Source of the DNA: an uncultured Muribaculaceae bacterium
GTDB lineage: Bacteria; Bacteroidota; Bacteroidia; Bacteroidales; Muribaculaceae
DNA length: 64,000 nt
Direction: 5' to 3'
Assembly: GCA_944321875.1 (NCBI GenBank)
Contig: CALUMX010000001.1
Location: forward strand, 1 to 64,000
Shown here: positions 8,801-64,000 of the stretch, in pieces
How positions within the stretch are numbered: position 1 is the first letter of the stretch
Layout: every line of letters starts with the position of its first letter
The notes under the pieces: generated by a model
Seen by the model: only the letters and a program-made list of their open reading frames with translations
Told to the model about the DNA's origin: nothing
Databases searched by the model: none
Translations under genes and position numbers: made by a program

Positions 8801-11800
8801 TTATTCTGTATATAATTCCAATTCCAACACGGAGACATTGTAGTTGAACACCGTCTCCATATAATTCTTACGAATGTCGCGCGCCACAATCAGGCTCTGA
8901 ATCAGTTCAGCAATGCCCGTCTCGCTCTCCTGAAACTTCAGCAACGCGCTCTCCTGAAGCGAAGTAGCCTCACGCAAGGCCGCCTTCTCATAGTAGTCGA
9001 GGCTCTTGCGCTGCTGCTGAATGCGTCCGCGAAGCTCGTCCACCTTGTTCTCCAACTGTGTCCGGCTGTCCTCCGCCTCCCACTCTGCCACGGTCATGGC
9101 AATCCGGGCCTGCTTCGCACGGCTCTGCTGCGGGAAGAACAGAATCGGGAACGACACGCCCACCGTCCAGGAGTTCAGGCCGCTGAGAGGCGACATCTTC
9201 TGCCGGGAATAGCCTACGGAAAGCTCCGGGAAAAAGCGGCTGCGTTCCACGCGCCACATCTCCTTCTTCTCCTCCACTCCTGACGACAGATAGTTCAGGT
9301 GGTCGGCCGAGACGATTGACGGCTCTTCCCGGAAAGGAAGAATCGCCAATACGCTGTCCTGAGGCAGAATATCCTCACCCGCATAGCAAGCCCAGCCGAA
9401 ACGTTTCTCCGCCAGACGAAGCTCCTCGCCCGCCTGCAGCCAACGCGTGTGGATGTCGGCCGCCGTGCTGGCTATCATGTTGCGCTCCGCCAGGTCGATG
9501 TCGCCCTGCTGATAGCGGAGGTCGCCGCTTGCCTGCAACTTCTCGGCCAGCTCCTTCTGTTCGCCGTAGAGCTGATACAGATTGTAGGCATACAGATAAT
9601 AGGCCCATGCACGCTTCACCTCGGCCGTAATCTCTTTCTGCACAAGATTGCGGAAATGCTCGCCTCTGGCTGTCTGTGTCTTGACCAATGCGTTCTTGTA
9701 GAACGGAGTCAGCAGGGAGCCGAGCGACTGCTCGACTACCAGTTCGTTGTCCTTCTTATATTCTCCGTTGAGTTGACCCCAGGAGTAGCTGAGCGATGTG
9801 CTGCCACCGTCCCACACCTCACCGCGGGAAGCCCGTACGCGTTCGATTTCAGCATTCGCCATTTTCAACCGCGGATGATTCTGTACGGCTATTTCCACAG
9901 CTTCCTCCAGCGTTACCTTCCGCGGCGCATCGGCAGCCTGTGCCGTACCGGCAGCCGACAGCAATACTGCCACGACCACCGCCATGCCCTTGCCCGAAAG
10001 TCTTTTCCTGCGCTTCCAGGCATACGTCATGCTGTTGACCAGTTTATAGAATGCCGGAACAATCACCAGCGTCATGGCTGTCGATACAATCAGACCGCCA
10101 ATCACCACCGTAGCCAACGGACGCTGTACCTCAGCTCCGGCCGATTTCGCCAGCGCCATCGGGACAAAGCCCAGTGATGCCACCAAACCCGTCAGGAATA
10201 CGGGACGCAGCAAGTGCTGGCAACCGTGGGATAAAATTCTGCTCGTACACATCTTGTATTTTCTTTCCTTGCTCAAATCATTGAAATGGTTAATCATCAG
10301 AATACCGTTGAGAACGGCCACACCAAACAGGGCGATGAAACCGACTCCGGCCGAAATGCTGAACGGCAGACCGCGCAGCCAAAGGGCTACGATACCGCCA
10401 ATCAGCGAGAGAGGAACGGTGGAGAATACCACCAGCGAGTAAACCACACTCTTGAAAGCGAAGAACAGCAACAGCAGAATCAGCACCAGTGCAATCGGAA
10501 TGACAACCGACAGCGTGTCGATGGCCTTCTGCAGGTTCTCAAACTGTCCGCCGTACTCAAAGTAGTAGCCCGGTGGCAGCTTCACGTTCTTTTCGAGCGA
10601 CTCGCTGATTTGCGAAACCACCTGCTGAATGTCGGCGTTGCGCACGTTCACGCCAATCACCACGCGCCGCTTCGTCGCGTCACGGTTAATCTGCAACGGT
10701 CCTTCCACCAGGTCGATGCTTGCCACCTCGCTCACCGGAATCTGCACGCCTTCGTTGGAACGCACGAACAATTTGTCGATGTTCAGATTCTTCACCTTGT
10801 CCTTGTCAAGGCGCACCACCAGGTCAAATCTCCGCTCGTTCTCGAAAACCACACCGGCAGTCTCTCCGGCATAGGCAGAACGGATAATCGTATTCAGTTC
10901 CTCGATGTCAATGCCATAGCGGGCAATCTTCGAGCGGTTGTAGTTGATGAGCAGCTGCGGCAATCCCATCGTCTGCTCGACAATGACATCCGACGCGCCC
11001 GGCACCTTCTCCACATAGCGGGCTGCCTCCTGTGCCTTCCGGAAAAGCTCATCCATGTCCTCACCGTAGAGCTTGATGGCGATATCTGCCTTCGCACCCG
11101 TCATCAACTCGTTGAAACGAAGCTGAATGGGCTGGCTGAAGTTGAACTCAGCGTCCGTAATGCCTTCCAGCGACTTCTTCATCTTGGCCACCATTTCCTC
11201 GCGGCTGCTGGCCGAAGTCCATTCGTCGAAGGGCTTCATCACAATCATCACGTCGGCATCCTCAACCGCCATCGGGTCGGTCGGCACCTCGGCCGTACCG
11301 ATTTTAGCCACCACATGCTTGATTTCCGGGAAATCAGCCTTCAACTTTTTCTCAGCGGCGAGCGACACCTCGATGCTCTTCGACAGCGAGCTACCTGCCG
11401 GGAGGGTCATCTGCATGGCGAAGTCACCCTCGTCGAGCGTCGGGATGAATTCCGCTCCCAGACGCGTAAACAGCACCAGCGAAAGCGCCAGAATACCGAA
11501 CGAGATGGAAATCGTCCACCAGATATGGCGCAATGCCAGACGAAGCGTACCCTTATACCAGCGGTTGAGCCAGTTGAAGAAGCGGTCGGCAAGCGTCGGC
11601 TTGAACGACTGCGTACGCTTCAGCACCACGGATGCCATCATCGGCACATAGGTGAGCGACAGCAGCAAGGCTCCGATAATACAGAACACCAGCGTCTTCG
11701 CCATCGGCGTAAAATATTTACCCTCAATTCCGTCCAAAGCCAGAATCGGGAAGAACACAATCAGGATAATCAGGACGGCAAACGTGGCACTGCGCACCAC

Positions 11801-13348: not shown

Positions 13349-13427
13349 CACCACGGCCGGCAGCTCGCACTCCGGCTGATAGCAAAACCTTACTAAAAAC
13401 AATCGCACTTAAAAAAACATTTACCCT

Positions 13428-15109: not shown

Positions 15110-16150
15110 TCAGCTCCATTTCTTGTATTTCAGATAGACGAAGACAAAGACGGCGACACACACCATCAGCCCCCATGCCACAAAATAACCGTACCTCCAT
15201 TCCAGTTCGGGCATCCAATGGAAATTCATTCCCCAAATACCGGCAAGAAAGGTCAACGGTATGAAAATCGTCGAGACAATCGTCAGCTGCTTCATGATGC
15301 TGTTCATGCGCTGGTCGTTGTTCGACAGATAAAGGTCGACGAGCGACGAAAGCATGTCGCGGCATCCCTCCAACGTCTGCAGAACAAACTGCAAGTGGTC
15401 GTTGACATCGTTGAAAAACGGGCGGCTGGCTTTGTGCAGCAACGCGCTCTCCCGGTAGAAAAGCCGTCCCAACTGCTCCTTCAAGGGCAGTACCGACTTC
15501 TTTATCAGCCGGAAATTGCGCCGGTGGAGCTGTATGACGTCAATACCAGGCTGCTGCTCGGGCTTGGTCGAAAGGAAACATTCCTCCAGGTCCTCCAGCT
15601 CATCCTCCATCTGCGATATGACGGACATATAGTTGGTCATCACGCTGTTGAGCAACACGCTCAGCAGATAGTCCGAATGGCGCGAGCGTATTTTCAGCAC
15701 ATTATTCCTCAATGCCGCATAGACATCGTCGAAGAAATCGGTCTCCATCTCCGTAAACGTCAGGATGAAGTCCGCTCCCTGCACGATGCAGAGCTGCTGC
15801 ACGCCGTAGATACCGTCTGTCCGCGGAAGCAGATGCTTCAGAATAACAGCGTTGTAGCGGTCGTGTACCTCTATTTTAGTCAGGTGTTCCGCATTGAGAA
15901 TGTCCTGTGTGAGAAGGAATTCAATTCCGAAATGGCAACAGATATCCTGCACCAGCTTCGTGTCACGCAGACCGTGAACCTGAATCCAGTTTATCGCATC
16001 GGGCCGCAGAAGCGACAGCATCTCATCAAAATCCCGGCAATTGTGCGACTCCACGTCGGTCACATTGTAACTGCACAGATGCACATGGGTAGGTGTCTGG
16101 CTGTCACCCGTGTAACTCAGACCCTCGCTCAACAGATTGTTATTTGTCAT
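15110..16150 (-). CDS. corA: CorA-family magnesium/cobalt channel
   Basis: The protein has 346 residues: an N-terminal cytoplasmic alpha/beta domain, a long helical stalk, then two C-terminal transmembrane helices. The signature GMN motif (GIWGMNFHWMPE) lies between the helices, and the C-terminus is basic (YLKYKKWS). CorA pentamers carry Mg2+ (sometimes Co2+ or Ni2+) into the cytoplasm. The gene stands alone on the minus strand. Its link to the neighbouring carbohydrate locus is probably positional only. Confidence 0.93.
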   Translation of the reverse strand: MTNNNLLSEGLSYTGDSQTPTHVHLCSYNVTDVESHNCRDFDEMLSLLRPDAINWIQVHGLRDTKLVQDICCHFGIEFLLTQDILNAEHLTKIEVHDRYNAVILKHLLPRTDGIYGVQQLCIVQGADFILTFTEMETDFFDDVYAALRNNVLKIRSRHSDYLLSVLLNSVMTNYMSVISQMEDELEDLEECFLSTKPEQQPGIDVIQLHRRNFRLIKKSVLPLKEQLGRLFYRESALLHKASRPFFNDVNDHLQFVLQTLEGCRDMLSSLVDLYLSNNDQRMNSIMKQLTIVSTIFIPLTFLAGIWGMNFHWMPELEWRYGYFVAWGLMVCVAVFVFVYLKYKKWS

Positions 16151-50656: not shown

Positions 50657-52147
50657 TCAGTAATTTCCTATTTTCTTAGCCAAATAATCCATTCCCAAAA
50701 ATTCGGCGCAGGTGATGACCGACGTGAGTGTCACGCCGAGTGCGCCGTGTACGTTGATATTCTGTCCCGTAAAATAAAGATTCTGCAACTTCGTGCGGGG
50801 CGAGAGCAGGCAAGTCATCGGCGAATGGTAATCTTTCAGAATGCCGTAGGCTGAACCGTCGATGGTACCCGTATAGTCACGGTAGCTGAGCGGAGAATTG
50901 GAATAGATATACTCTACTTTGTCGCTCCAATCAAAACCGTGTCTCTTCATCAATGCCAGCAACTCGGCGATTTTCCGCTCCTTAAAAGCCTTGTAAGCCT
51001 CACCTCTGCGCTCCGGCAGCGTGTCGGACCATTCCGAAAGCTCGTCGATATACATCGGAGTAATAACCGAAATCACATTGGCAAAGCGCTCATCGTCCGA
51101 CATCGGCTGCATCGAAATCAGGCAGCAGTCAATCGGACCGTCGTGACGGACATACCATACGCTCTCACGCTCGTGAATATATTCGTTGCGGTTGACATAG
51201 GGACAGGCGCCGGGTTTCATCAGCAGATACATGGTGAAGAGTCCGTAGCTGTTCTCGAGCGAGCGGATGCGGGTATGAAAGGCTTTCTTGATAACCTTAT
51301 TCTTGTCGAGCAACTCAAGCGTCAGTTGCGGGTGCATATTGGAAATGACGTGCTTGGCTCCGATGCGCTCGCCGCCCCTGAGCTGTACACCCGTCACCCG
51401 GTCACCATCGACCATAATGCGCTCCACCTCACTGTCACACCGCACCGTACCGCCGTTTTTCCTGATTTCATCAACCAGCGAGGTGGCGATGTGCATGCTG
51501 CCGTCGATGCAGCGGTAGGCTCCCTCCATGTAGGAATAGCTAATCATCGCATGCTCATAGAAGGTAGATTTGTCGTACACGCCGCCATAGAGAACGGAGT
51601 TGGCAGCCAACACATTGCGCAAACGCTCATCGGCTATGAGCGAGTCGATGACTCCTGATGCCGACATTCCGAAATAGCTGAGAGCACCGGGATTGGAGAC
51701 ATAACCTTTCTTGAAATTGTCGACACTGATGGAATGCCCCACCTCGCTCAACCGCGCGACGTAACGGCGCAAATTGCCGCTCTCGGCAGGAAACTGGCGG
51801 CTCAGTGTCTCGATGAAGGCTTCCTCACCCATCGCATAGTCGTAGACACCGCCGGCATAGTGAATGCGGTCGAACGCCTCCTCATCGAGTTTCTTCAGAC
51901 GCAGGCGGTCCATAATGCCGAAATAGCTGAAACACTGATGAAGCACCTGTCCGCTGCCGAGACTGCCGATATAGTGCATGCCGGTGTCGAGTTTGTAGCC
52001 GTGGCGCACGTAGCTTTGCAGACAACCGCCCACCTGACGGTTTTTCTCCACGACACAGACGTTAAAGCCTTCCTTGCTCAGCATTACGGCCGTCTCCAGC
52101 CCTCCCAGGCCGCTGCCTATCACGATTATGTCAAATTCATTCATCAT
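50657..52147 (-). CDS. Phytoene-desaturase-like FAD-dependent oxidoreductase
   Basis: The protein has 496 residues. The N-terminal dinucleotide-binding motif is IIVIGSGLGGLETAVMLSKEG with EKNRQVGGCLQSY. The C-terminal FAD motif is NLYFTGQNINVHGALGVTLT. These place it with carotenoid desaturases/isomerases and retinol saturases. A substrate with conjugated or isolated double bonds is likely. It overlaps the upstream fusion gene by 4 nt. In pigment clusters such enzymes adjust polyene chains, which suits the proposed aryl-polyene-like role (inference). Confidence 0.85.
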   Translation of the reverse strand: MMNEFDIIVIGSGLGGLETAVMLSKEGFNVCVVEKNRQVGGCLQSYVRHGYKLDTGMHYIGSLGSGQVLHQCFSYFGIMDRLRLKKLDEEAFDRIHYAGGVYDYAMGEEAFIETLSRQFPAESGNLRRYVARLSEVGHSISVDNFKKGYVSNPGALSYFGMSASGVIDSLIADERLRNVLAANSVLYGGVYDKSTFYEHAMISYSYMEGAYRCIDGSMHIATSLVDEIRKNGGTVRCDSEVERIMVDGDRVTGVQLRGGERIGAKHVISNMHPQLTLELLDKNKVIKKAFHTRIRSLENSYGLFTMYLLMKPGACPYVNRNEYIHERESVWYVRHDGPIDCCLISMQPMSDDERFANVISVITPMYIDELSEWSDTLPERRGEAYKAFKERKIAELLALMKRHGFDWSDKVEYIYSNSPLSYRDYTGTIDGSAYGILKDYHSPMTCLLSPRTKLQNLYFTGQNINVHGALGVTLTSVITCAEFLGMDYLAKKIGNY

Positions 52148-54918
52148 TCTTCCTTTTTAAGTACATAGACGGCATTGGCCGTAATGCGGCTGTCACCGCC
52201 CGGCACGTCCTCCAGCCGCATTCCCAGAGAGGATGCCACTGACTGCAGGTGCGGGCGTGACGTATAGTTGAGTTTTCCCTTTGTCTTGTTGAAAAGGCAG
52301 ACGCGTGTCGACAGAATTTCCGTCAGCACGGTCAGGCGGTGTTTCTTCCGTTCGGCGGCATTGCTGTCGCGCACCACAATCATTCCTCCCGGATTCAGCC
52401 GGGCAGCACAGCGGGCAAGGAGGTCTTCCTGCTCTTTGTCGCCAAGATAGTGAAGCACGTCGCTGATAATGAACGCATCGGAAAGCGGCAGTTCACAACG
52501 GCTTACGTCGGCACACACGAAATGCAGATTGTCGGGGCGGTGCCATCCATGAGCGGCAATGTCGATTTTCCGGCGGTCATAGTCGATACCTGTCACCTGG
52601 CGCTCTGCCGAAGTCATGGCCAGCAAGCGGCAGAGCATACCCATGCCGCAACCGATGTCGGTCAGCACGCCGCCGGCAGGCAGCAAGCGGTCAAACAGCC
52701 GATAATGATGCTCCAAACGGAATTTCACCTTCACATACCATTCCACGATTGGACCTTTGTAGATATAATGATGCAGGAATGCGCTCACTACGTTGGGATT
52801 GTCGGCCGACTGCATCGAGGAGCAAAGGCGGTCATACTCGCGGCGCATCAGCGCGCCTATCCGCTTCGTGCGCTCCTGATAGGTCGCACCGTAAGTCTTA
52901 TCGTCAGCCGGAATCAGCGGCAGAACCCTCACCGCCATAAGTCCGCGATGCACATAGCCGGGCTGCTGCTTCGGGATGATATGCCCGTTGCCATAGAAAA
53001 GCATCGGCAACAGGTCGGCATTCAGCTCCTCTGCCAGATAGAACGCTCCCTTGTGAAACCGCCGGATTCTTCCGTCGGTGCTGCGCGTTCCCTCCGGGAA
53101 AATACCCACTGAATAACCTTCTGCCATTTTCCGCTTCAGATAATCCATGTTTTTCTCATACCCGTCGGCCACACACACGAAACCCGCATAACGGATAACC
53201 GCACCGAATACGGGTGAGTTCCACACCCAGCGGTTCGTGACAATCAGCAGTTTCGGGAAAAGGGCAATCATAATCAGAATATCGACAAACGACTGATGGT
53301 TGGCAATGACAACCGCCGGCTTTGTCGGCAGGCAACCCTCATCGAACAGTTTCTTCTTCCTCACAAAGAAAGCCGACCAAAGCAGGAAACGGCAGGTGTA
53401 GTGCATCAAACCGCAGGTCAACGCCTGTTTCCTGCTTTGCCGTAAAGGCAAAATCAGCAGGAAAGGCAGAACGACGTGAAGGACGATACAGCCAAGAAGA
53501 AAAACGTTGTAGGTAAGAAACGTCTGAAGGAAACCGGCCAGCGTGTAAGGGCGCAGACCGCGGGAAGCAGGCCGCGAGATAAAAATATCGAACAACAAAG
53601 GTACGACGGAATAAGCCGTAGCCAGTTGGGCGGCATAAGTCAGGAAAGCAAGGGAGAAAATTTCGAAAAGAGAGGATTTCGGAAACAGCACCATTGCCAT
53701 TCCGGCCACCATCACGAGGGCTGAATAATACATGACAACTCCATGAAGCCGGTAGCCCTGAATTCCCCGACGGAAGCACCACAACTGCCGCGCTACCGAC
53801 AAGCCGCCCGCCAGTCCTCCTAATCCCATCGCGGCAATGGTCAGCATCTCCACCGTACGGCCATAGACTGTACCGCCATAGCTTTCCAACGCTCCGACAG
53901 ACAGCATTCCCACCTGTATGGGCAAAGATGAGAGAAAAGCCAGTTCGAAACGGCCGAAAACAGCCCATTGCAGGAGTAGAAACACCAACGCCACAATTCC
54001 TCCATCCGACTCCCAGAAAGGATTTCCTACCGCATGAAACCGACAGGAGGAAAAATCAAAACTTACGGAAAAAGCAATGACGGCAAGCATCGAAACCGCC
54101 GTCAGCAACACACTGTAGAATCCCAACTGCCACGCCAGGGCACGCACCAGATTGCGCGGAAAAATCCAGAAGACGCGGAGCAAAACGAGCAGCGTATTGA
54201 GCACACTGATGCGCGTGAAGTCACGCATCGGCCGGAAATGCGACACACGTTCCTCCTGCGGCGGATAATAGACGCGGATGGGGATGCTTCTCACCTCCAC
54301 GCCACCCCAGGCGGCAAAGACAAGGGCTTCCAGCTCAAATTCATATTTGGCCGTGTACCAGAAACGGTCCACGTTCATTTTCTTCAAGGGATACAACCGA
54401 TAGCCCGACTGCGTGTCGGGAAGGGCAATGCCCGTCTCCAGCCGGTACCAGAAATTGGAAAATTTATTGGCAAAGGTGTTCTTTCCCGGCATATTCTCAC
54501 TCTCGATGTTGCGCGCACCGACATAAAGTGCATCGGGATTCTGCTCTGCGGCCTCGATAAACAGCGGTAAGTCGGAAGGATAGTGTTGCCCGTCGGAATC
54601 GATGGTGATGGCCACCCGGTAACCTGACTTTTTCGCCTGTGAAAGTCCGTTTTTCAATGCGGAACCTTTGCCCTTGTTGCGTTCATGGCGGATAACCCTC
54701 ACCGAAGGGAAATTTCTCAACACTTCCTCAGTGCGGTCGGTCGAACCGTCGTTCACGACAATCACATCGGAAGCGTATTCCAACACCTCCGCCACCACGT
54801 CGCCGAGCGTCTTGTCGTTGTTGTAGGTCGGAATAATGACCACTCCACCCAACTTACGCATCCGCTCCGGCCACGACAGTTCCATGCGATTACCGTCAGC
54901 CTTCATTTCACAACTCAT
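52144..54918 (-). CDS. Fusion of GT2 glycosyltransferase, LPLAT acyltransferase and SAM methyltransferase
   Basis: The protein has 924 residues. Residues about 24-250 are a GT2 domain (VVIIPTYNNDKTLGDVV, the acidic motif TIDSDGQH). Residues about 255-500 are a polytopic membrane region. Residues about 510-715 are an LPLAT acyltransferase, with NHQSFVD as the HX4D motif and FPEGTRS. Residues about 770-924 are a class I methyltransferase (LTDIGCGMGMLCRLL). One chain could thus glycosylate, acylate and methylate a lipid head group at the inner membrane. It overlaps the dehydratase gene by 11 nt and the oxidoreductase gene by 4 nt. GT2-acyltransferase fusions are known in aryl-polyene loci; the added methyltransferase is less usual. 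Confidence 0.87.
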   Translation of the reverse strand: MSCEMKADGNRMELSWPERMRKLGGVVIIPTYNNDKTLGDVVAEVLEYASDVIVVNDGSTDRTEEVLRNFPSVRVIRHERNKGKGSALKNGLSQAKKSGYRVAITIDSDGQHYPSDLPLFIEAAEQNPDALYVGARNIESENMPGKNTFANKFSNFWYRLETGIALPDTQSGYRLYPLKKMNVDRFWYTAKYEFELEALVFAAWGGVEVRSIPIRVYYPPQEERVSHFRPMRDFTRISVLNTLLVLLRVFWIFPRNLVRALAWQLGFYSVLLTAVSMLAVIAFSVSFDFSSCRFHAVGNPFWESDGGIVALVFLLLQWAVFGRFELAFLSSLPIQVGMLSVGALESYGGTVYGRTVEMLTIAAMGLGGLAGGLSVARQLWCFRRGIQGYRLHGVVMYYSALVMVAGMAMVLFPKSSLFEIFSLAFLTYAAQLATAYSVVPLLFDIFISRPASRGLRPYTLAGFLQTFLTYNVFLLGCIVLHVVLPFLLILPLRQSRKQALTCGLMHYTCRFLLWSAFFVRKKKLFDEGCLPTKPAVVIANHQSFVDILIMIALFPKLLIVTNRWVWNSPVFGAVIRYAGFVCVADGYEKNMDYLKRKMAEGYSVGIFPEGTRSTDGRIRRFHKGAFYLAEELNADLLPMLFYGNGHIIPKQQPGYVHRGLMAVRVLPLIPADDKTYGATYQERTKRIGALMRREYDRLCSSMQSADNPNVVSAFLHHYIYKGPIVEWYVKVKFRLEHHYRLFDRLLPAGGVLTDIGCGMGMLCRLLAMTSAERQVTGIDYDRRKIDIAAHGWHRPDNLHFVCADVSRCELPLSDAFIISDVLHYLGDKEQEDLLARCAARLNPGGMIVVRDSNAAERKKHRLTVLTEILSTRVCLFNKTKGKLNYTSRPHLQSVASSLGMRLEDVPGGDSRITANAVYVLKKEE

Positions 54919-55261
54919 CCATTTCTGCCTTCATCTTCACACAAGTACGGCCGCCACACATACCCACCGCCTTAACCGTACGGCCATCGACATCGATTTC
55001 CAGCTCCACTACATCGGACAGCGACGGAGTGACCATTGCCAGAAACTTACACGATGACACTTTCCCATATTTCAGGTTACAACCAAGATACCGTTCTACC
55101 AGTTCCCGGATGATAAGCATCGTACATACCCCCGGCAATACAGGAGTACCGGGAAAATGTCCCTTGAACACATCATGGGCATAATTAATTCTGACAGAGG
55201 CTTTCACAGAGCCGCTTTCCGTCTCAAAACGTTCGGTAGAATACAATTGGTCGATTAGCAT
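54908..55261 (-). CDS. 3-hydroxyacyl-ACP dehydratase (FabZ/ApeI-like hotdog protein)
   Basis: The protein has 117 residues from the ATG at 55261. A longer frame exists, but its first 40 codons read through the promoter repeat and are not coding. The hotdog motif HDVFKGHFPGTPVLPGVCTM carries the catalytic His and the FPG turn. It would remove water from a 3-hydroxyacyl carrier during chain building. It is the first gene of the packed lipid cluster and has a full promoter 35 nt upstream. No ketosynthase or carrier protein is in view; these may lie beyond the right edge. Confidence 0.85.
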   Translation of the reverse strand: MLIDQLYSTERFETESGSVKASVRINYAHDVFKGHFPGTPVLPGVCTMLIIRELVERYLGCNLKYGKVSSCKFLAMVTPSLSDVVELEIDVDGRTVKAVGMCGGRTCVKMKAEMDEL

Positions 55262-55295
55262 AACAATTCCGCACTTCTGATAAAAGGCATTTTTG

Positions 55296-55327
55296 CAAAG
55301 ATAGTGAAAGGCGAGAGTAAAGGCAAA
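55296..55327 (-). promoter_or_regulatory. Repeat-borne promoter upstream of the lipid cluster (copy 4)
   Basis: On the minus strand, TTTG (55324-55327), a 20-nt spacer and TATCTTTG (55296-55303). The spacer keeps CTCGCCTTTCAC but differs from the dnaX copies in its first half. It is 34 nt before the dehydratase start. Confidence 0.75.
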
Positions 55328-55370
55328 TGAGAACAAAGTTTTCAAATTTGACTGTACCAAGCCGCATCCT

Positions 55371-55486
55371 ATCTTATACAAAGATAGTGAAAGTCGCGCG
55401 CAGAAAAAAGCAAGTTTACTTGCATATTTCAGCTGAGCTGCATCCTATCTTATCTAAAAATAGTGAAAGTCGAGAGCAAAGACAGC
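55371..55486 (-). repeat. Two decayed copies of the promoter repeat
   Basis: The conserved segment CATCCTATCTTAT introduces CAAAGATAGTGAAAGTCG at 55379 and TAAAAATAGTGAAAGTCG at 55455. With copy 4 at 55296 they are spaced 83 and 76 nt. The copy at 55379 keeps the -7 box but has lost the -33 TTTG; the copy at 55455 has lost both. They look like relics of tandem duplication. Confidence 0.7.
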
Positions 55487-55489
55487 AAC

Positions 55490-55749
55490 AGTTTCCATAG
55501 GCGATTCCTCGCTCGTAGGGATGTACCCCAGGTGCATCCGCCCCGCAAAAATCCGGAACAAACACCTGTAAATCATTGAATCATTCAGCAAAGTGCTGCC
55601 TGCGGGCGCACCTGGTGTACACCCCTAAAAGCCGGTGAAAAATAAATCTGAATATCGGGAATCTCCAAGAGTGATTTTCCACAACACCTATCGGATAAAA
55701 TACCTTGAAATTAGAATATTATGCCTTTTTGCGGATAATAAGCCGCAAA
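55490..55749. repeat. Left copy of the 260-bp direct repeat flanking the restriction island
   Basis: This 260-bp stretch appears again, with no difference that I could find by eye, at 63081-63340 in the same orientation. Inside it, arms 55522-55541 and 55602-55621 form an imperfect inverted repeat (17 of 20 match, core CCAGGTGC / GCACCTGG). It ends in TTTGCGG-N8-CCGCAAA. No convincing gene is contained. Confidence 0.9.
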
Positions 55750-55772
55750 TTTTGCGGTTAATTATCCGCAAA
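55728..55772. other. Two tandem TTTGCGG-N8-CCGCAAA sites
   Basis: Site A at 55728-55749 has arms TTTGCGG and CCGCAAA around an 8-nt spacer ATAATAAG. Site B at 55751-55772 has the same arms around TTAATTAT. One base separates them. Outer arms 55727-55739 and 55761-55773 are also fully complementary. Seven-base inverted arms with an 8-nt centre resemble a tyrosine recombinase core site. The right repeat copy holds site A only. Confidence 0.55.
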
Positions 55773-55817
55773 ACCACATGATTATATGTAACTCATATAA
55801 TTGTTTCAACAATATTA

Positions 55818-58800
55818 TCAAGCTACAATTACTTTACTGATGAAATTTACATAATCAATAAGAGTCTTCGGGGTATTCCGGAATATAGAGGTAAATTTGT
55901 TGAATGGAGGTTGCTGCAAAACAGTTGTCGCGATGTTTCCATTCTCACAGACGTACCGGATTAGCATACGAAGATATTCTTCTTGCTGACGTGTCATCTC
56001 CACACCATGAATCAAGTTCCTATATTTTTCCAAAGCAACATTCTGTTCAATTCCAATAATCGAACGTATGAACGCTGCAATATTTTGCTGATACGGTCTG
56101 TTTTGAGTCTGGGCGTCGAATTCCTCACGAGTACCTAATTCCTGCCAGAATATTTGTTCCAAACGAGCAATATCTATGCTGTCAAGTGGTTCCAGACAAT
56201 ATATTTTCTGTAGAACCACGTCGTTAGAAAGATGCTCTTTCAAATAATCCTCAACTCTCCGACGATAAGTACGTATAGGTTGTATTCTTACACCCGATTT
56301 ATCCTTTTCAAATGTATCGGTTATATTGACAGTGAAGACTTGTCCGGCCGCATTACTGTCAATATACTGCATAAGTTCACGAAGTTCTTTTCTTACACGC
56401 TCCAAAGAATCAAGATTCTTAGATTCCCAAAACTGAACCGTTGAAACTTCGTTAAGCACATCCATTTTTGCCTTCACTTGAGGAATAGATGCCTTTTTCT
56501 CTTTCAGATACTCGGCAATATCCATAATCTTTCGCTCTGATGAAACCGAATTAACAGACTCATCCACGATTGATAACTGGACTTTTAGTATAAGTGCATC
56601 AAATTTTAAAGCCGCCGTATTGGTTACCGCATTTTGCAGCAAAGGAGCTATTTTGGATTTGATTGCCATTACATCTCCCACTGATAAACAAGTCATTGCC
56701 TCCGGAACCGAATATGTCTCTACAGCCCGAAGTTGCAGACGGACATCCAAACGATTTCTGTTTAATTCAGCAATCTGCTTATGCAAAATATCTTTCAACT
56801 CATCATGAAATGCCTTCACGTTCTCATCTGCCTGATATTTTCCGTCCTGCAAAGCAAATTTAATATCGGTTCGCAAATTGAACAACAAGCTGACGATTGA
56901 CTGTGATTGTGGAAGCTGTGCTCCATTCGGATTCATTTCAAAATATTCAAAGTTCCGATAAAAATCAAAGATCAAGAATTCTTTCTTATGAATACCGGAA
57001 CCAAACAAATTCTCACATAGACGGGTTCCACGTCCTATCATTTGCCAAAATTTGATTTTTGAATGAATCGGTTTAAAAAACACCAGATTCACTATCTCCG
57101 GAACATCTATACCCGTATCCAACATATCGACAGAAACTGCTATCTGAGGCTGTTTTTCGATATCTGAGAAACGGGAAATAAGGTCGGAAGCATATTTCTC
57201 ATAATTATCAATCACCCGACAGAAATCAGGGCCCAGTTCCGGATACAATGCGGCAAACCGTTCCGCAATGAGTACGGCATGTCTATGATTATAAGCGAAA
57301 ATAATAGTTTTTCCAATTACAGCCCCATCCTTTATCCGGATTCCGTCGCTCATCAGCCGATTCAGCACATGGTCAACTGTATCAATATTAAATATATATT
57401 TAAAAATTTCAGTAGCACTGATCGTTCGGCTATATGAGTCATCAGGCTCCATCCCCGCCATCATTTTTTCATACTCAAAAATCTCCTCAATCTGCTTCCG
57501 TTCCTCATCTGAAAGATTTTCAGGATGGATACCTTCAGTCAGAATCTTCGAGTTGTCTTTTATCGGTATAAATGGATTCAAATAGCCGTCAGCAATAGCT
57601 TCCTCATACTCATAGCTGTCTGTTGGCTCACCTTGTTCCATACCAAACAGCTCATAAGTAGAACGGTCAACTTCGTTTCTTGGCGTAGCAGTCAGTCCTA
57701 AAAGCAAGCCATCGAAGTAATCAAAAATTGCACCATATTTACCAAAGACACTTCTGTGTGCCTCATCAATAATTATCAAATCAAAGCGTCCTATAGAGAA
57801 TGTCTTGTTGTCTCTATCGAGATGGCCAATCATTGTCTGATAGGTAGAGAACAAGATACGGGCTGTAATGTCTACATCACTGTCACGCAACGAGCTTACG
57901 GTCATATCAGGAAGCAATTTCGTATAGTTCTTTTTTGCTTGGTTGACCAATTCAATTCGGTCTGCAAGAAACAGAACGTTCTTGACCCACTTGTTGCGAA
58001 CAAGTACATCTACCAATGAGATACTGACACGAGTCTTACCAGTACCGGTAGCCATAACGAGTAATGCACGTCTATGCTTGTCATTGTAATGACGGCAAAC
58101 AGACTCAATAACCCGCTTCTGATATTTTCGATTGGTTATCTTGTCAGAAATAGTCAAATCAGTAATGTCATTTCTGTCACGCTGAGATATCAGGCGACGC
58201 AACTCATCAAGGGTGTGGAAGCCCATTACAGAACGTGCCGGATAGCCAATTCCATCAATAATGTTCGTATCAAAACCATTGGTATAATAGATTACGGGGC
58301 GAGGACACGCATATTTTGCTGCGAGACAATCAGCATACAACTCTGCCTGATGCCGGCCCTTGGCAGCATCTACGCTTGTACGTTTTGCCTCTACAACGGC
58401 AATCGGAATGGCATTCGTGTCAAACAATACATAATCAGCATATCCTATACCACTTTCACTGGGCATTCCGTGTACTTCAATTTCCGTACAAGCCTGACGT
58501 GGTATAATCTCACCGTCTTTCTCTGATACTTTCCAACCGGCCTCGTGTAAAAGCAAATCAATATATAACTTCCGAGTCTCAGCCTCTGATAGGTCGTTAA
58601 CTATAGGTTGGGCATTGACGGTTGCCGGAGTCTCATCTGTCGTTTGCTCAACTGTTTCAGCTGCACTTTGAGCAGCATTGGAGGTTATGGTCGCAACTTG
58701 ACCCGGCTGAGGAACAACGGCCACACTACCAAGCGTTGCAACCTGAGGAATAAGGTCTTTATTGAAATCCGGCAATTTATCGATGAGCTTCCATGCAAGT

Positions 58801-59174
58801 AAAACGGAGCCTATGATATAATACAAGTTCAGGACGGCAAAGAAAGATTCCCTGCGTCCTACATATCCGGCATCGCCACCAACGTGTGCCGCATTATTGC
58901 CAATCTTGCGAACATAATGTATTCGCTTCATGAGTTCAGGACTGTCAATAAACTCCTTAAACCTTTCATCAGTGGTAAGAGAAAGTAACGACGTCCTCTC
59001 GCCAACTTGCCAATTTTTGAGTCTATATACCGTCTTTACTATAGATTCCAATGCAAGTCGGGCATTTTGAGCCGAAATCAATGGATTGGCTACTTGAAAT
59101 TCCTCTGCGGTAGCACAATATCTGTGCAATGTAGCCAACCCTCTAATGTCTTTTATTATATCAAAATTCTTCAT
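55818..59174 (-). CDS. hsdR: Type I restriction enzyme R subunit
   Basis: The protein has 1118 residues. An N-terminal DUF4145-like helical domain (about 1-135) precedes the HsdR nuclease domain, with YADYVLFDTNAIPIAVVEAKR as the PD-(D/E)xK-like Glu-x-Lys core. The motor has Walker A ATGTGKTRVS, the DEAH-type box LIIIDEAHRSVFGKYG and motif VI GRGTRLCENLFG. A C-terminal EcoEI-type domain ends the protein. It translocates and cuts DNA lacking the host methylation mark when joined with HsdM and HsdS. It starts 6 nt after fic. The gene is A+T-rich compared with the flanking chromosome. Confidence 0.93.
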   Translation of the reverse strand: MKNFDIIKDIRGLATLHRYCATAEEFQVANPLISAQNARLALESIVKTVYRLKNWQVGERTSLLSLTTDERFKEFIDSPELMKRIHYVRKIGNNAAHVGGDAGYVGRRESFFAVLNLYYIIGSVLLAWKLIDKLPDFNKDLIPQVATLGSVAVVPQPGQVATITSNAAQSAAETVEQTTDETPATVNAQPIVNDLSEAETRKLYIDLLLHEAGWKVSEKDGEIIPRQACTEIEVHGMPSESGIGYADYVLFDTNAIPIAVVEAKRTSVDAAKGRHQAELYADCLAAKYACPRPVIYYTNGFDTNIIDGIGYPARSVMGFHTLDELRRLISQRDRNDITDLTISDKITNRKYQKRVIESVCRHYNDKHRRALLVMATGTGKTRVSISLVDVLVRNKWVKNVLFLADRIELVNQAKKNYTKLLPDMTVSSLRDSDVDITARILFSTYQTMIGHLDRDNKTFSIGRFDLIIIDEAHRSVFGKYGAIFDYFDGLLLGLTATPRNEVDRSTYELFGMEQGEPTDSYEYEEAIADGYLNPFIPIKDNSKILTEGIHPENLSDEERKQIEEIFEYEKMMAGMEPDDSYSRTISATEIFKYIFNIDTVDHVLNRLMSDGIRIKDGAVIGKTIIFAYNHRHAVLIAERFAALYPELGPDFCRVIDNYEKYASDLISRFSDIEKQPQIAVSVDMLDTGIDVPEIVNLVFFKPIHSKIKFWQMIGRGTRLCENLFGSGIHKKEFLIFDFYRNFEYFEMNPNGAQLPQSQSIVSLLFNLRTDIKFALQDGKYQADENVKAFHDELKDILHKQIAELNRNRLDVRLQLRAVETYSVPEAMTCLSVGDVMAIKSKIAPLLQNAVTNTAALKFDALILKVQLSIVDESVNSVSSERKIMDIAEYLKEKKASIPQVKAKMDVLNEVSTVQFWESKNLDSLERVRKELRELMQYIDSNAAGQVFTVNITDTFEKDKSGVRIQPIRTYRRRVEDYLKEHLSNDVVLQKIYCLEPLDSIDIARLEQIFWQELGTREEFDAQTQNRPYQQNIAAFIRSIIGIEQNVALEKYRNLIHGVEMTRQQEEYLRMLIRYVCENGNIATTVLQQPPFNKFTSIFRNTPKTLIDYVNFISKVIVA

Positions 59175-59180
59175 GGGTCA

Positions 59181-60191
59181 TCACTTTTTAAATTCCCAAT
59201 AGCCAATCTTGTCAGAGCCAGTTCGCTCTATGACGGTTCCTTTCAGTTTCTTAATGTGACGTGCCACTGTAGCGCGACCTATACCAAGAGCATCAGCATA
59301 TTCATCGTATGTATAATTCGGATGTTCTTTTATAAGAGCAATAAGCCGGGATACAGTATCACTTGATTTTACAGTATCATTTACAGTATCACCAACAGTA
59401 TTGTCCATAGATTTTTGATACTGTAGAATTCTACTTTCAAGATTGGCAATATGTTGAGCCAGCATTACATCTTGAACAATAGTACTATCTTCATTTTCAC
59501 GGCTATCAATTAAAGCTTGAATGTATTCACCTTTAGCTTCCTTTGTTACAATGGACGGGATAAGACCTAATTGACGCTGTACAATGTTCATAAGCAGGCG
59601 TGTGGCACGCCCGTTACCGTCTACCCACGGATGAATAGTAACAAGTCTGAAGTGTGCTTCAAAACTTAAACGATAGCATGCAGCAACATCGCTCTTATCT
59701 ATTGCAAACAGTTCTTCATTCAGCCATTTACAGAAATCCTCCGTTGCTTTAGGCACTTTATTGTATGCTAAATAACTCTTACCGCCAATTCCTGCACTTA
59801 CATTGCAAAGACGCAGTTCGCCTTTTGACGAATCAAACTTACCTGCTATTGTAGAGTATTCAGCACCCGTACGACGCATAACCATTGCAGAGAGATTGCA
59901 TAAGAAATCTACCGTATAAGGTTTGTGAGACTTCACCCACTCAAAACCAAACACATAGGCATTTTTCAAATCGACATTCATCATTTGTTCATTGAGCGAA
60001 CGTCCTTTTGCGGCGATGCCCTCATCAAAAAGCAACTGGTTCTCTACCTCTGTGACCGTAGAGCCCTCGATAGCTGTAGAATGGGTAATAAGTGAGTAGA
60101 GATAGAATTTTTCATAATCTACCTGCTGTGCGATACCGCAATCTTCATATCGCTTTAATGTCGCCAATAGTTTTAAATCTATCTCTTTCAT
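59181..60191 (-). CDS. Fic-domain AMPylase-like protein with C-terminal winged helix
   Basis: The protein has 336 residues. The Fic core motif is HPWVDGNGR (187-195). An N-terminal STAIEG (38-43) matches the (S/T)xxxE(G/N) inhibitory motif of class II Fic proteins, so the enzyme is probably self-restrained. Residues about 275-336 form a winged helix (YDEYADALGIGRATVARHIKKL). Fic enzymes transfer AMP or a related group to protein hydroxyls. It lies between hsdS and hsdR, 12 and 6 nt away, in the same operon. That position suggests a role tied to the restriction system, such as control or abortive defence (inference). Confidence 0.88.
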   Translation of the reverse strand: MKEIDLKLLATLKRYEDCGIAQQVDYEKFYLYSLITHSTAIEGSTVTEVENQLLFDEGIAAKGRSLNEQMMNVDLKNAYVFGFEWVKSHKPYTVDFLCNLSAMVMRRTGAEYSTIAGKFDSSKGELRLCNVSAGIGGKSYLAYNKVPKATEDFCKWLNEELFAIDKSDVAACYRLSFEAHFRLVTIHPWVDGNGRATRLLMNIVQRQLGLIPSIVTKEAKGEYIQALIDSRENEDSTIVQDVMLAQHIANLESRILQYQKSMDNTVGDTVNDTVKSSDTVSRLIALIKEHPNYTYDEYADALGIGRATVARHIKKLKGTVIERTGSDKIGYWEFKK

Positions 60192-60203
60192 TGCCTTTTA
60201 GTT

Positions 60204-61379
60204 TTAAGAAAAATAATATTGCATCCGTTCTGCCATCAAGGTTTCAGCATCTTTCAACTGTTCCCGTAGTAAATCTTTTTGCTTCTCAATCGCTTCCACC
60301 TGAGAAGCAAAGTGCTGTTGTAATGAAAGAGGAGGAACGATTAGCTTTAAGCCACCTAAAATTTTTTGGTTAAGATTTGGCATTGTTGCTCCAATACATT
60401 TGTCATTTAAAAATTTTTGCACAGATTGTGAAGTATATTGGTAGTAAAATAATATCGGTAATATGTTTTTAAGTTCAAGCATAAAAGAGCCTGTGCCACA
60501 TAGCCAACCATCTTCTTTATCAGTAATAATAGCACATTTACTCAAATCACCTCTACGCGCAATAATTATATTATTAGTTCTCACGATGTACTTTGACAAT
60601 TCTTCAGCCTTCTGATAAGATATTTTTGCTATATCATCAGTTATTATTTTCCTATTATTAATATTCTGAGGATTGATGGATGGAATACCATCAACTGTAT
60701 AATCTGATTTATGTAACATGGAACCAAATGGACCAGTTGACATCTTCATACTTAGATCAGAAACTTTATTCATTTTCCACCCTTTGGGATTTGTAATCGG
60801 ATCTCCAAACATATCAAGGAAGATAGATTGAGCCAAAGCATCAAGGTCTGCCAATTGAGCCTTGTAACCATCTATCATTTCTTGCACAGCATCCAATTCG
60901 GACGCAATAGCTTGTTGCTCATATAAAGAAGGGACTATGACAGGAAATGCTTCTACATTTTTTTTAGAGATTTCCTTAAATGTCACACCATTACCTCTGC
61001 GATTTAGTTCCTTTTGGTTGGCAATGAGATAATAATAAAGAAATCCATTAAAGAACTTGTTTCCACAAACAATATTCTTGAAACCTTGATTGCAGTACAT
61101 TGGCTCAGTTGTTATAGCAACTTTTCCGATGGGAGCCCTTGAAGATAACAACACTGTTCCGGGGGGCATCAGTGTTAATTTCGTTTTACTTAATGCGTGG
61201 TCGGTTATTTGCTTTTGAGTCCTGCCTATATATTTCTCTCCTTTTAATTCTGCCGGAGTGACCCAATTATATTTGTCACCCCAATTTAGAGGATCATCGG
61301 TGCGTGGTGTTGCACCGGAAACAATTATGCCAATATCTTTAAGGGTCTTACGTCCCCATTTCGATTTATCCACCTTCAT
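60204..61379 (-). CDS. hsdS: Type I restriction-modification specificity subunit
   Basis: The protein has 391 residues from the ATG at 61379, 4 nt after the hsdM stop. Two target-recognition domains (about 5-165 and 205-365) are each followed by a helical spacer: EQQAIASELDAVQEMIDGYKAQL and QQHFASQVEAIEKQKDLLREQL. GWKMNKVSDL marks the start of the second half. Each TRD reads one half of the bipartite DNA target. Only one hsdS gene is present, with no extra silent cassettes or recombinase, so phase-variable shuffling is not indicated here. Confidence 0.92.
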   Translation of the reverse strand: MKVDKSKWGRKTLKDIGIIVSGATPRTDDPLNWGDKYNWVTPAELKGEKYIGRTQKQITDHALSKTKLTLMPPGTVLLSSRAPIGKVAITTEPMYCNQGFKNIVCGNKFFNGFLYYYLIANQKELNRRGNGVTFKEISKKNVEAFPVIVPSLYEQQAIASELDAVQEMIDGYKAQLADLDALAQSIFLDMFGDPITNPKGWKMNKVSDLSMKMSTGPFGSMLHKSDYTVDGIPSINPQNINNRKIITDDIAKISYQKAEELSKYIVRTNNIIIARRGDLSKCAIITDKEDGWLCGTGSFMLELKNILPILFYYQYTSQSVQKFLNDKCIGATMPNLNQKILGGLKLIVPPLSLQQHFASQVEAIEKQKDLLREQLKDAETLMAERMQYYFS

Positions 61380-61383
61380 AGCC

Positions 61384-62880
61384 TTACGAATTAAGCAGTT
61401 TCTGAAACTCCGCAAACGCAGCATCAATTTTTGCCTGACGCTCTTTCATTCTCGATATAATCACTTCCGGCGCATCGTAAACTACCACTTCACGTTCTAC
61501 CTCATGGTAGCACTTATAGCTAAGGTCGTAGTTATTTTCACGTATTTCATCCACCGACACTAAGAAGGATTGCTCTTTGCGACTGCGTCCTGCTTCGCCA
61601 CTAAGATTGTGGAATCTACTGATAATATCAGGTATATCATTTTGCTCAGGCATTGGCGTGCGTTGGGTCGTCAACGAGAACCCATCAGCCCGCATATCGT
61701 AGAACCACACTTTATCAGTTCCACCTGTTCCGGTCTTGGTAAATATGATGATTGCAGTAGACACTCCGCTGTAAGGCAGGAATACACCGCTTGGCATAGT
61801 GATAACGGCTTGCAGACAATTATCATCCACCAATGCTGAACGAATGGTTTTATAGGCCTGGGCGTCACCCGTCAGTACCGTATCCGGAACAATGGAGGCA
61901 CAACGGCCACCTGTCTGAAGCATTCTCATCATCAAAGCAAGAAACAGAAGCTCTGTCTTTTTCGTCTTTACTGCCGCACGAAGTGATGGAGCAATATCAT
62001 CCTGGTCGAGACTGCCTGCAAACGGCGGATTGGCAAGGCACAATGTATACTTGTTCGTGTCGTTGTTCTCATCTGAGAGCGAATTTCGATAGTACAACTG
62101 CGGTTCGTCCACGTCATGCAGCATCATGTTCATACATCCGATACGCATCATTGAAGCATCGGAATCTGACCCATGGAAAATTTCACTGCGGAAACGTTTC
62201 ATAACATCAATATTCAAGAGTTCATCGCTCTGATGCTCTTGAATGTACCTCGCCGCTTCCATGATGAAACCGGCTGACCCCATGGCAGGGTCACAAATAG
62301 TATCTTCGAGAGTCGGCTTCATGAGTTCAACCATCATGCGGATAATGTGCCTTGGAGTACGAAATTGACCGTTTGTTCCTGATGCAGCCATTGTGCTAAG
62401 CATGTACTCATACACATCGCCCATCATGTCGGCACCGTCTGCTGCAATTTCCTCTATTCCCTCAACAACACGCGACAATAACCGGGCATTGTTAATCTGA
62501 AAAACGGTATTCTCCATTGCCTTACTGTAGGCAGAGCCTTCTCCGCTTATATAACGAAGAAAAATAAAAACATCATTGCGTACTCTGTTCAGCATCTTTG
62601 CAGGCTCCATATCCTTAAAAATGTGCCAGCGCATTTCCTCATAAGGTACATCCTGATCAGTCGACGGATTGTGCCATAATCCTTTCGGGAATGTAGGGTT
62701 TACCAATGAATCACCCGTCAGATTGGCAATAACCTCTTTTTGCAATTGGCTCTCATCGAGCATTTTCATAAAAAGCAAATACGTTATCTGCTCAAAAATT
62801 GCCGAAGGTTGGGTAAATCCACTGTTCCAGAATGTCTGCCATACGGCATCTATTTTTTGCTTTATTTCGCCTGTAATCAT
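61384..62880 (-). CDS. hsdM: Type I DNA adenine methyltransferase subunit
   Basis: The protein has 498 residues. An N-terminal helical HsdM_N domain begins KQKIDAVWQTFWNSGF. The SAM-binding motif is DPAMGSAGF (198-206), and the catalytic motif is NPPF (284-287) of N6-adenine methylases. It modifies the host target with HsdS. It is the first gene of the operon, with a plausible promoter 26 nt upstream. Confidence 0.94.
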   Translation of the reverse strand: MITGEIKQKIDAVWQTFWNSGFTQPSAIFEQITYLLFMKMLDESQLQKEVIANLTGDSLVNPTFPKGLWHNPSTDQDVPYEEMRWHIFKDMEPAKMLNRVRNDVFIFLRYISGEGSAYSKAMENTVFQINNARLLSRVVEGIEEIAADGADMMGDVYEYMLSTMAASGTNGQFRTPRHIIRMMVELMKPTLEDTICDPAMGSAGFIMEAARYIQEHQSDELLNIDVMKRFRSEIFHGSDSDASMMRIGCMNMMLHDVDEPQLYYRNSLSDENNDTNKYTLCLANPPFAGSLDQDDIAPSLRAAVKTKKTELLFLALMMRMLQTGGRCASIVPDTVLTGDAQAYKTIRSALVDDNCLQAVITMPSGVFLPYSGVSTAIIIFTKTGTGGTDKVWFYDMRADGFSLTTQRTPMPEQNDIPDIISRFHNLSGEAGRSRKEQSFLVSVDEIRENNYDLSYKCYHEVEREVVVYDAPEVIISRMKERQAKIDAAFAEFQKLLNS

Positions 62881-62905
62881 AAATGTACTACTTTGATGTT
62901 ATTTA

Positions 62906-62937
62906 CAATATTAATAAAAATATCAATATTTGCCAAA
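62906..62937 (-). promoter_or_regulatory. Promoter of the hsdM-hsdS-fic-hsdR operon
   Basis: On the minus strand, TTTG (62934-62937), a 20-nt spacer and TAATATTG (62906-62913), one mismatch from TAnnTTTG. It lies 25 nt before the hsdM start. The rest of the 62938-63080 stretch is A+T-rich with no recognisable gene. Confidence 0.5.
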
Positions 62938-63080
62938 TAAGACAAGTTACATTGGATATTATTGCTGTCCGATAAAAAATCCAAGAACTACAACAATCAG
63001 TTGATTTTTCAATCCGCTATCAGATATTCTATTAATAGAAATTGTCGATTGGAGAATTGCCTGAAGATTGCCTATACAAT

Positions 63081-63340
63081 AGTTTCCATAGGCGATTCCT
63101 CGCTCGTAGGGATGTACCCCAGGTGCATCCGCCCCGCAAAAATCCGGAACAAACACCTGTAAATCATTGAATCATTCAGCAAAGTGCTGCCTGCGGGCGC
63201 ACCTGGTGTACACCCCTAAAAGCCGGTGAAAAATAAATCTGAATATCGGGAATCTCCAAGAGTGATTTTCCACAACACCTATCGGATAAAATACCTTGAA
63301 ATTAGAATATTATGCCTTTTTGCGGATAATAAGCCGCAAA
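63081..63340. repeat. Right copy of the 260-bp direct repeat flanking the restriction island
   Basis: Same orientation as, and apparently identical to, 55490-55749 at a constant offset of 7591. It ends with site A, TTTGCGG-ATAATAAG-CCGCAAA (63319-63340); the sequence then diverges to ACCTGAAGAC. It lies 33 nt from the end of the deacetylase gene. Confidence 0.9.
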
Positions 63341-63373: not shown

Positions 63374-64000
63374 TTACGGGAGGAGGGAGTTGAAGGTGTA
63401 GCCGGTGGTTTTCAGATAGGTGAGGATGTCGTGAAGAAGGCGGTCACTGCCGGGCAGGCGGTCGTGGAGCAGGATGATGGCTCCAGGTTTGAGTTTGCCT
63501 TCGATGTGTTTCAACACGGTATCAGGGTCGGAATTACGGGTGTCGTAGGTGCGGATGGTCCATCCTACGGGACGAAGCTCCAACCGACGCACAACAGCAG
63601 CCACGGTGGGATTGGTCACCCCAAACGGAGGTCGGAACAAAGTTACTTTTCTATCCGAAACTTTTTCCAACGCGGCAGAACAAGCCTCCACGTCGGCAAG
63701 CATCGCCTGCCTGCGCAACAGAGGGAAACGGGAAGTATGGGTGTGGGAATGGTTACCTACGGCATGCCCCTCGGCAAGGATACGCCGTACGATTTCAGGA
63801 TGTGCCTCTACTTTCTCTCCAATACAGAAAAACACGGCTTTTGCCCTATGTGCCTTCAGCACGTCGAGCACTTTCGGGGTCTGTTCGGGGTCAGGACCGT
63901 CATCAAACGTAAGATAAACACGTTTCTCCTTCGTTTCCACACGGTTAAGACATTTAAGATAAACACCGCTGTCAATGCTCCACGAAGCGTAGAAGAGCAA
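63374..64000 (-). CDS. Polysaccharide deacetylase (NodB domain), N-terminus beyond the window
   Basis: At least 208 C-terminal residues are in view; the frame is open to the right edge, so the start is outside. NodB motifs are in order: TFDDGPDPEQTPKVLDVL (catalytic and metal Asp), NHSHTHTSRFPLL (two metal His), FRPPFGVTNPT and IILLHDRL. The segment before the domain is short and partly hydrophobic, fitting a membrane-anchored enzyme. It removes N- or O-acetyl groups from a sugar. It lies on the same strand as the lipid cluster, on the far side of the restriction island, and may have been its neighbour before the island arrived (inference). Confidence 0.9.
   Translation of the reverse strand: MLFYASWSIDSGVYLKCLNRVETKEKRVYLTFDDGPDPEQTPKVLDVLKAHRAKAVFFCIGEKVEAHPEIVRRILAEGHAVGNHSHTHTSRFPLLRRQAMLADVEACSAALEKVSDRKVTLFRPPFGVTNPTVAAVVRRLELRPVGWTIRTYDTRNSDPDTVLKHIEGKLKPGAIILLHDRLPGSDRLLHDILTYLKTTGYTFNSLLP

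Follow-up and report, generated by a model that had tools for sequence, protein, structure and literature searches.

How did a type I restriction operon come to lie inside a biosynthetic gene cluster, between two copies of the same 260-base sequence? The question is raised by positions 55,490 to 63,340 of the DNA analysed here, the first 64,000 nucleotides (the window) of contig CALUMX010000001.1 from an uncultured Muribaculaceae bacterium. The sequence-only reading had seen a removable defence cassette, A+T-rich, free of integrase and transposase genes, recently gained or homogenized by gene conversion, and moved by shared repeats or by a recombinase acting in trans. We favour the explanation that a horizontally acquired type I operon was inserted into a flexirubin-like cluster with long target duplication of a 260-base resident spacer, and we give it an even chance of being right. 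We think it probable that the locus exemplifies a previously described entry route for restriction genes, and not a new kind of mobile element. The features at issue are these:

55490..55749, plus strand: left 260-bp repeat copy, a truncated body of a miniature inverted-repeat transposable element (MITE) to 55690, then 59 bases ending in a 23-bp palindromic unit
55727..55773, no strand: near-perfect palindrome (inverted repeat) of 47 bases in two units, its centre at the end of the left copy
55818..59174, minus strand: hsdR, 1118 aa (Pfam ResIII, HSDR_N, EcoEI_R_C; PADLOC REase_I)
59181..60191, minus strand: fic, 336 aa, with a C-terminal winged helix (Pfam, PADLOC, motif HPWVDGNGRATR)
60204..61427, minus strand: hsdS (Pfam Methylase_S in two stretches)
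61384..62880, minus strand: hsdM, 498 aa (Pfam N6_Mtase, HsdM_N; PADLOC MTase_I, 7.3e-167)
62960..63080, plus strand: MITE left end with terminal repeat TATTGCTGTCCG, at the right copy only (family alignment)
63081..63340, plus strand: right 260-bp repeat copy, an exact match to 55490-55749

The two copies had been described as running in the same direction and impossible to tell apart, and exact alignment bears this out (260/260 identical). The base just before the repeat is the sole mismatch (CAAC versus CAAT); extended with these bases, the alignment is identical at 263/264 positions. Between the copies, open reading frames (ORFs) and Pfam matches give the order hsdM-hsdS-fic-hsdR, all on the minus strand. 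The G+C content (GC) is 0.406 for 55750-62957 against 0.526 and 0.513 in the flanks, as the claim of an A+T-rich block required. We compared the locus with a sample of 451,866 bases, a sixth of the 2.70-Mb draft (45 contigs), chosen non-randomly around contigs C1 and C3 and the MITE copies. The lowest-GC 7.2-kb segment among 213 overlapping ones in this sample starts at 55801 (sample mean 0.511, standard deviation 0.027), and besides the 260-bp pair it contains no direct repeat that exceeds 125 bases with at least 90% identity. The four genes enclosed by the copies (at least 90 aa, after gene picking) include no recombinase, integrase or transposase, again as claimed, and the integrase gene that marks the inside of an integrase-driven genomic island is thus missing. 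An Rfam search of the region gave no match at E <= 0.1.

Family alignment identifies the first ~200 bases of the repeat as a degenerate MITE body. The left copy, used as a query against its own genome, gave 26 matches. Two are the copies themselves and six are further places of 90-208 bases; the remaining 18 are short, and one of these is the palindrome of the left copy. Body identity is 67-86% among the six other substantial copies and between these and the 260-bp repeat. Both ends, with the terminal repeat TATTGCTGTCCG, are kept in three copies (254, 344 and 348 bp), two of them with an exact 9-bp target duplication. We call the element a MITE because the copies at the restriction locus hold no ORF of 80 aa or more; the family is also short and non-coding, with terminal inverted repeats, target duplication and several copies. 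The 59 bases that follow the body align nowhere else in the genome, apart from the palindrome itself. Set against the 14-33% divergence of the other MITE copies, the lack of any difference between the two 260-base copies implies a single origin for both, whether recent or by way of conversion, and this agrees with the recent gain or gene conversion proposed from the sequence.

The edges of the two copies are not alike. Ahead of the right copy stands a complete MITE left end, which begins at 62960, at a distance of 79 bases from the hsdM start; the MITE right end is absent. The left copy lacks the beginning of the MITE, and the sequence ahead of it is another interspersed repeat, situated upstream of the dehydratase gene. 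The single mismatch in 264 bases falls where the repeat adjoins the MITE left end, and both of its variants occur in the family: the C9 copy at 13417 has T, and the copies C14, C19 and C3:56633 have C. At the opposite edge, the right copy has one palindromic unit and then unrelated sequence; the left copy runs on into a second, inverted unit, which stops 44 bases short of the hsdR end. The palindrome pair folds strongly (z = -6.55 against shuffles). The 22-bp unit occurs nowhere else in this genome at up to three mismatches, and the exact 24-mer of the palindrome is in no viral contig. We rejected the idea that the palindrome forms a repetitive family: it was found at the restriction locus only in its own genome, at one place in genome G421, and in 0/7 other genomes tested. 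The G421 occurrence (L068:817-866) is a 50-base stretch 90% like the palindrome, the sole place in that genome. It lies between other genes, in a spacer separated by about 8 kb from a restriction operon, and not at the operon edge. An ORF at L068 taken as a transposase associated with repetitive extragenic palindromes had no Pfam match, and this lead was dropped.

These edges suggest how the insertion may have proceeded. The resident spacer would have consisted of a truncated MITE, the tail and one palindromic unit, and on the incoming DNA hsdM would have been directly preceded by a MITE and hsdR directly followed by a palindromic unit. Recombination inside the MITE would have made the hsdM-side junction, and the hsdR-side junction would have formed at the palindrome, leaving the operon inserted co-directionally between the deacetylase and dehydratase genes. 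The stretch would now be present twice because the second junction point lay 260 bases beyond the first on the resident sequence. The anatomy, the 260-base identity, the foreign composition and the family divergence are the observed part of this explanation, from which we infer the order and mechanism of the events. The sole edge mismatch and the presence of the MITE left end at the right copy only are what a crossover inside the MITE would leave, and the end of the left copy at the palindrome centre, together with the lowest GC of the sample, also speaks for the insertion. Each edge carries a long copy of one local sequence, both in the same orientation, as expected of a long target duplication.

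Two further supports come from other genomes: the two nearest operon relatives that we inspected, L055 and MT835483, lie in mobile contexts, and in four relatives of the flanking cluster the neighbourhood of the dehydratase holds a lolA-like gene and lacks restriction genes. Among the best 80 loci of the scan for hsdM relatives, identity over the best segment (aa) reaches 87% in L055, 82% in L058, 80% in L056 and 71% in L057. L055 has the same gene order, including fic between hsdS and hsdR, and a relaxase gene nearby. In the phage collection, DNA matches were found to MT835483 (75-79%) and MT839086 (71.5%). MT835483.1 (L212; 82 kb), filed as a bacteriophage, has type I restriction genes; it also encodes TraM, two tyrosine integrases, an IS66 protein and a CD-NTase-like defence gene, and on this account looks like a conjugative transposon, not a phage. 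Its hsdS and hsdR lie too close together to accommodate fic. The 28 plasmid records with matches show 60-80% identity and, among the matches listed, cover at most 7% of the query. By DNA, hsdM has a match in 6/61 genomes, the window's own counted, and in 0/3 others of the genus.

The flanks of the locus were compared in the same way, and they hold the following features:

54908..55381, minus strand: FabA/FabZ-type dehydratase ORF, left flank, the coding part probably from about 55261
55291..55479, minus strand: interspersed repeat upstream of the dehydratase gene, with two TAnnTTTG boxes
63374..64000, minus strand: polysaccharide deacetylase, right flank, the ORF extending to contig position 64042

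The units of the interspersed repeat are spaced 76-83 bases apart, and its boxes presumably resemble Bacteroidota promoter boxes. Another cluster protein, of 924 aa (52144-54918), has a match in 23/148 genomes at E <= 1e-60, the window's own counted, and in 0/3 other genomes of the genus; it fuses glycosyltransferase, acyltransferase and methyltransferase domains, and several relatives have the glycosyltransferase part apart. We fetched the corresponding stretch from four (G057, G056, G054 and G010) of the 22 other genomes that match this protein. In the first three a LolA-family gene lies between deacetylase and dehydratase; in G010 it lies just upstream of the dehydratase, and the fetched stretch has no deacetylase match. 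All but G056 have a second small gene between the LolA-family gene and the dehydratase. The G057 genes match the NCBIfam models LolA2_flexi (above its cut-off) and LolB2_flexi (below it), which is why we call the cluster flexirubin-like. None of the four has restriction genes at the comparable place, a point in favour of the sequence-only reading; an exact empty site with one 260-base copy was not among them. The G057 LolA protein found no match in the window's genome, in a search without a positive control that does not demonstrate absence. By DNA, the left flank has matches in 19/61 genomes, mostly through an interspersed repeat, and the right flank (660 bases) in 5/61, at full length only in its own genome and by 30-93 bases in the other four.

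Direct repeats are not a general feature of the related operons compared. From 81 loci we kept the 68 with hsdM and a plus-strand hsdR match; the 13 dropped were 12 without a plus-strand hsdR in the stretch and L212, where the operon is reversed. More than 300 bases were available on both sides, often only a few kb, at 59/68 loci, and three of these 59 have a direct repeat between the flanks (E <= 1e-6). That of L079 is 61 bases long (93%), and that of L084 (245 bases, 77%) looks like a gene duplication. In L106, 54-base direct repeats with an internal palindrome (8850-8903 and 15811-15864; 51/54, or 94%, identical) tightly bracket a type I operon upstream of metK, and are the only two occurrences in that genome at up to three mismatches. 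Its relative G491 also has hsdR beside metK, without the 54-base repeat in the hsdR-metK spacer, the one side of this operon that was seen.

Several of these results weigh against an insertion with target duplication. The L106 repeats appear younger than the position of their operon, and comparison with G491 thus indicates that flanking repeats need not date from the insertion, which makes them weaker evidence for its mode. Both junction features at our locus could likewise have arisen after the insertion. The flank DNA search found no empty site with one 260-base copy in relatives, among which there is no close strain. The dehydratases of the comparison genomes are only 38-40% identical in amino acids, so these are distant relatives, and the absence of the lolA-like gene from this locus may be an older event.

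The same observations feed the main competitor, which we regard as rather unlikely: the operon would have entered earlier by another route, and only afterwards would the 260-base copies have arisen, when a MITE beside hsdM and the spacer beside hsdR underwent unequal exchange or gene conversion. The right copy has the complete MITE left end and the left copy the complete palindrome, as if each were native to its place, and the flank repeats of L106 seem younger than the operon position they share with G491. Such a conversion must nevertheless have copied 59 bases that are not MITE and, at the right copy, stopped exactly at the palindrome centre, and no strain shows an intermediate.

We consider it distinctly unlikely that a circle made of the operon and one repeat copy entered through one crossover with a resident copy, a route by which it might also leave. 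Flank, repeat, operon, repeat, flank is indeed the product of such an integration, and in such a circle the MITE left end and the palindrome would both adjoin a single repeat. Donor and resident must, however, already have matched, including the 59 bases, when other MITE copies differ by 14-33%. One search gave no plasmid match, and none of the plasmid and phage matches listed (for plasmids, the listed records without eight others) reaches into the repeat.

An assembly artefact, in which an operon from elsewhere or from a separate circle was misplaced between the flanks through the 260-base repeat, seems very unlikely to us: the genome is a draft of 45 contigs, but this contig runs on to 192 kb, and 260 bases should be within ordinary paired-read reach. 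Least probable of all is a recombinase-driven cassette with an attachment site in the repeat and the recombinase encoded elsewhere, for although a palindromic unit ends each copy and is confined in this genome to the restriction locus, and G421 has its single palindrome about 8 kb from a restriction operon (only loci surrounding hsdM having been examined before), the block encodes no recombinase, the L068 palindrome lies in a spacer between other genes and not at an operon edge, and in the 13-16 kb around the six other substantial MITE copies no low-GC block bounded on both sides was seen.

The broader proposal of a removable cassette therefore stands in part. Foreign composition, the lack of an hsdM DNA match in the three other genomes of the genus, identical repeats able to recombine and the four fetched relatives without restriction genes at the comparable place agree with it. 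We found no support for a recombinase acting in trans or for a repeat shared as a docking site; the repeat is a worn MITE fused to a local palindrome. Other islands bounded by this repeat, which the sequence-only reading had proposed to look for, were not seen: within 13-16 kb around each of the six other substantial copies we saw no low-GC block with a MITE on both sides, and the two same-direction copies on contig C9, at a distance of 6.8 kb, have genes of ordinary GC between them. Visual inspection of 29 loci from the MITE-plus-tail search, some holding the MITE end and others the MITE core, several at contig ends, showed no transposase of a cognate insertion sequence (IS) shared beside the MITE end. 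The MITE left end gave a single match in a plasmid search (E = 0.3), and the exact 27-mer of the MITE core is in no viral contig. A query of MITE plus tail, scored on two candidates per genome, has a match in 50/397 genomes, long only in the window's own and in short pieces in the other 49.

A low-GC gene set, a helix-turn-helix gene with a split HipA-type gene (L018:4876-6515; Pfam Couple_hipA, HipA_C), is followed 45 bases on by the MITE copy of contig C14. MITE relics, at this place as at the restriction operon, might offer passive docking homology for the gain and edge duplication of defence and toxin-antitoxin cassettes and for their loss by homologous recombination, an idea that we hold to be highly doubtful.

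With hsdM, hsdS and hsdR together and their domains intact, the operon is, as judged from sequence, a type I restriction-modification gene set; matches to the NCBIfam equivalog models for hsdM and hsdR fall below the cut-offs. HsdR keeps GTGKT, DEAH and D..ExK, which we take to be its motor and nuclease motifs. Fic keeps HPWVDGNGRATR as well as STAIEG, presumably a motif of the inhibitory type. Relatives of this Fic protein, encoded between hsdS and hsdR, occur within 2/68 related operons (L055 and L065).

Nobusato et al. 2000 and Furuta et al. 2010 reportedly described restriction-modification genes that insert with long and variable duplication of the target. Such insertion is described for Helicobacter pylori in a passage of PMC1643837, and according to passages of PMC3031569, genome comparison suggested that all types of restriction system can insert with long, variable target duplications. 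PMC3874152 and PMC12255303 do not alter this comparison. Our locus resembles these cases in the placement of a restriction unit between long direct repeats copied from one local sequence; it differs in that no empty allele was found and that one junction lies inside an interspersed MITE, because of which homology probably took part. PMC3031569, in the part concerned, also mentions several restriction systems flanked by direct IS copies, forms that may move or amplify. The present operon has same-direction mobile-element sequence on both sides as these do, and tandem amplification or loss through recombination would be expected. The element is, however, a non-autonomous relic, without its left terminal repeat at the left copy and its right one at the right copy, unlike a composite transposon with intact outer terminal repeats. 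The block is thus not a working composite transposon: each copy has lost the outer end that transposition would require. It also recalls mobilizable and conjugative type I operons through L055, its nearest hsdM relative, which has fic as well, and MT835483, its best match in the phage collection, but unlike these contexts has no relaxase, tra gene or integrase.

Overall, the locus looks like a recent example of a restriction operon settling in a chromosome, and since the spacer holds a MITE, and the remaining copies of that MITE have diverged far more, a single spacer can be recognised as the source of both repeat copies. The defence operon now sits inside a biosynthetic cluster, at the place of a lolA-like gene in the four fetched relatives. 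Judging from the repeats, recombination between the copies would plausibly be expected to delete the operon and leave one copy behind, and the 260-base repeat thus predicts a measurable rate of operon loss.

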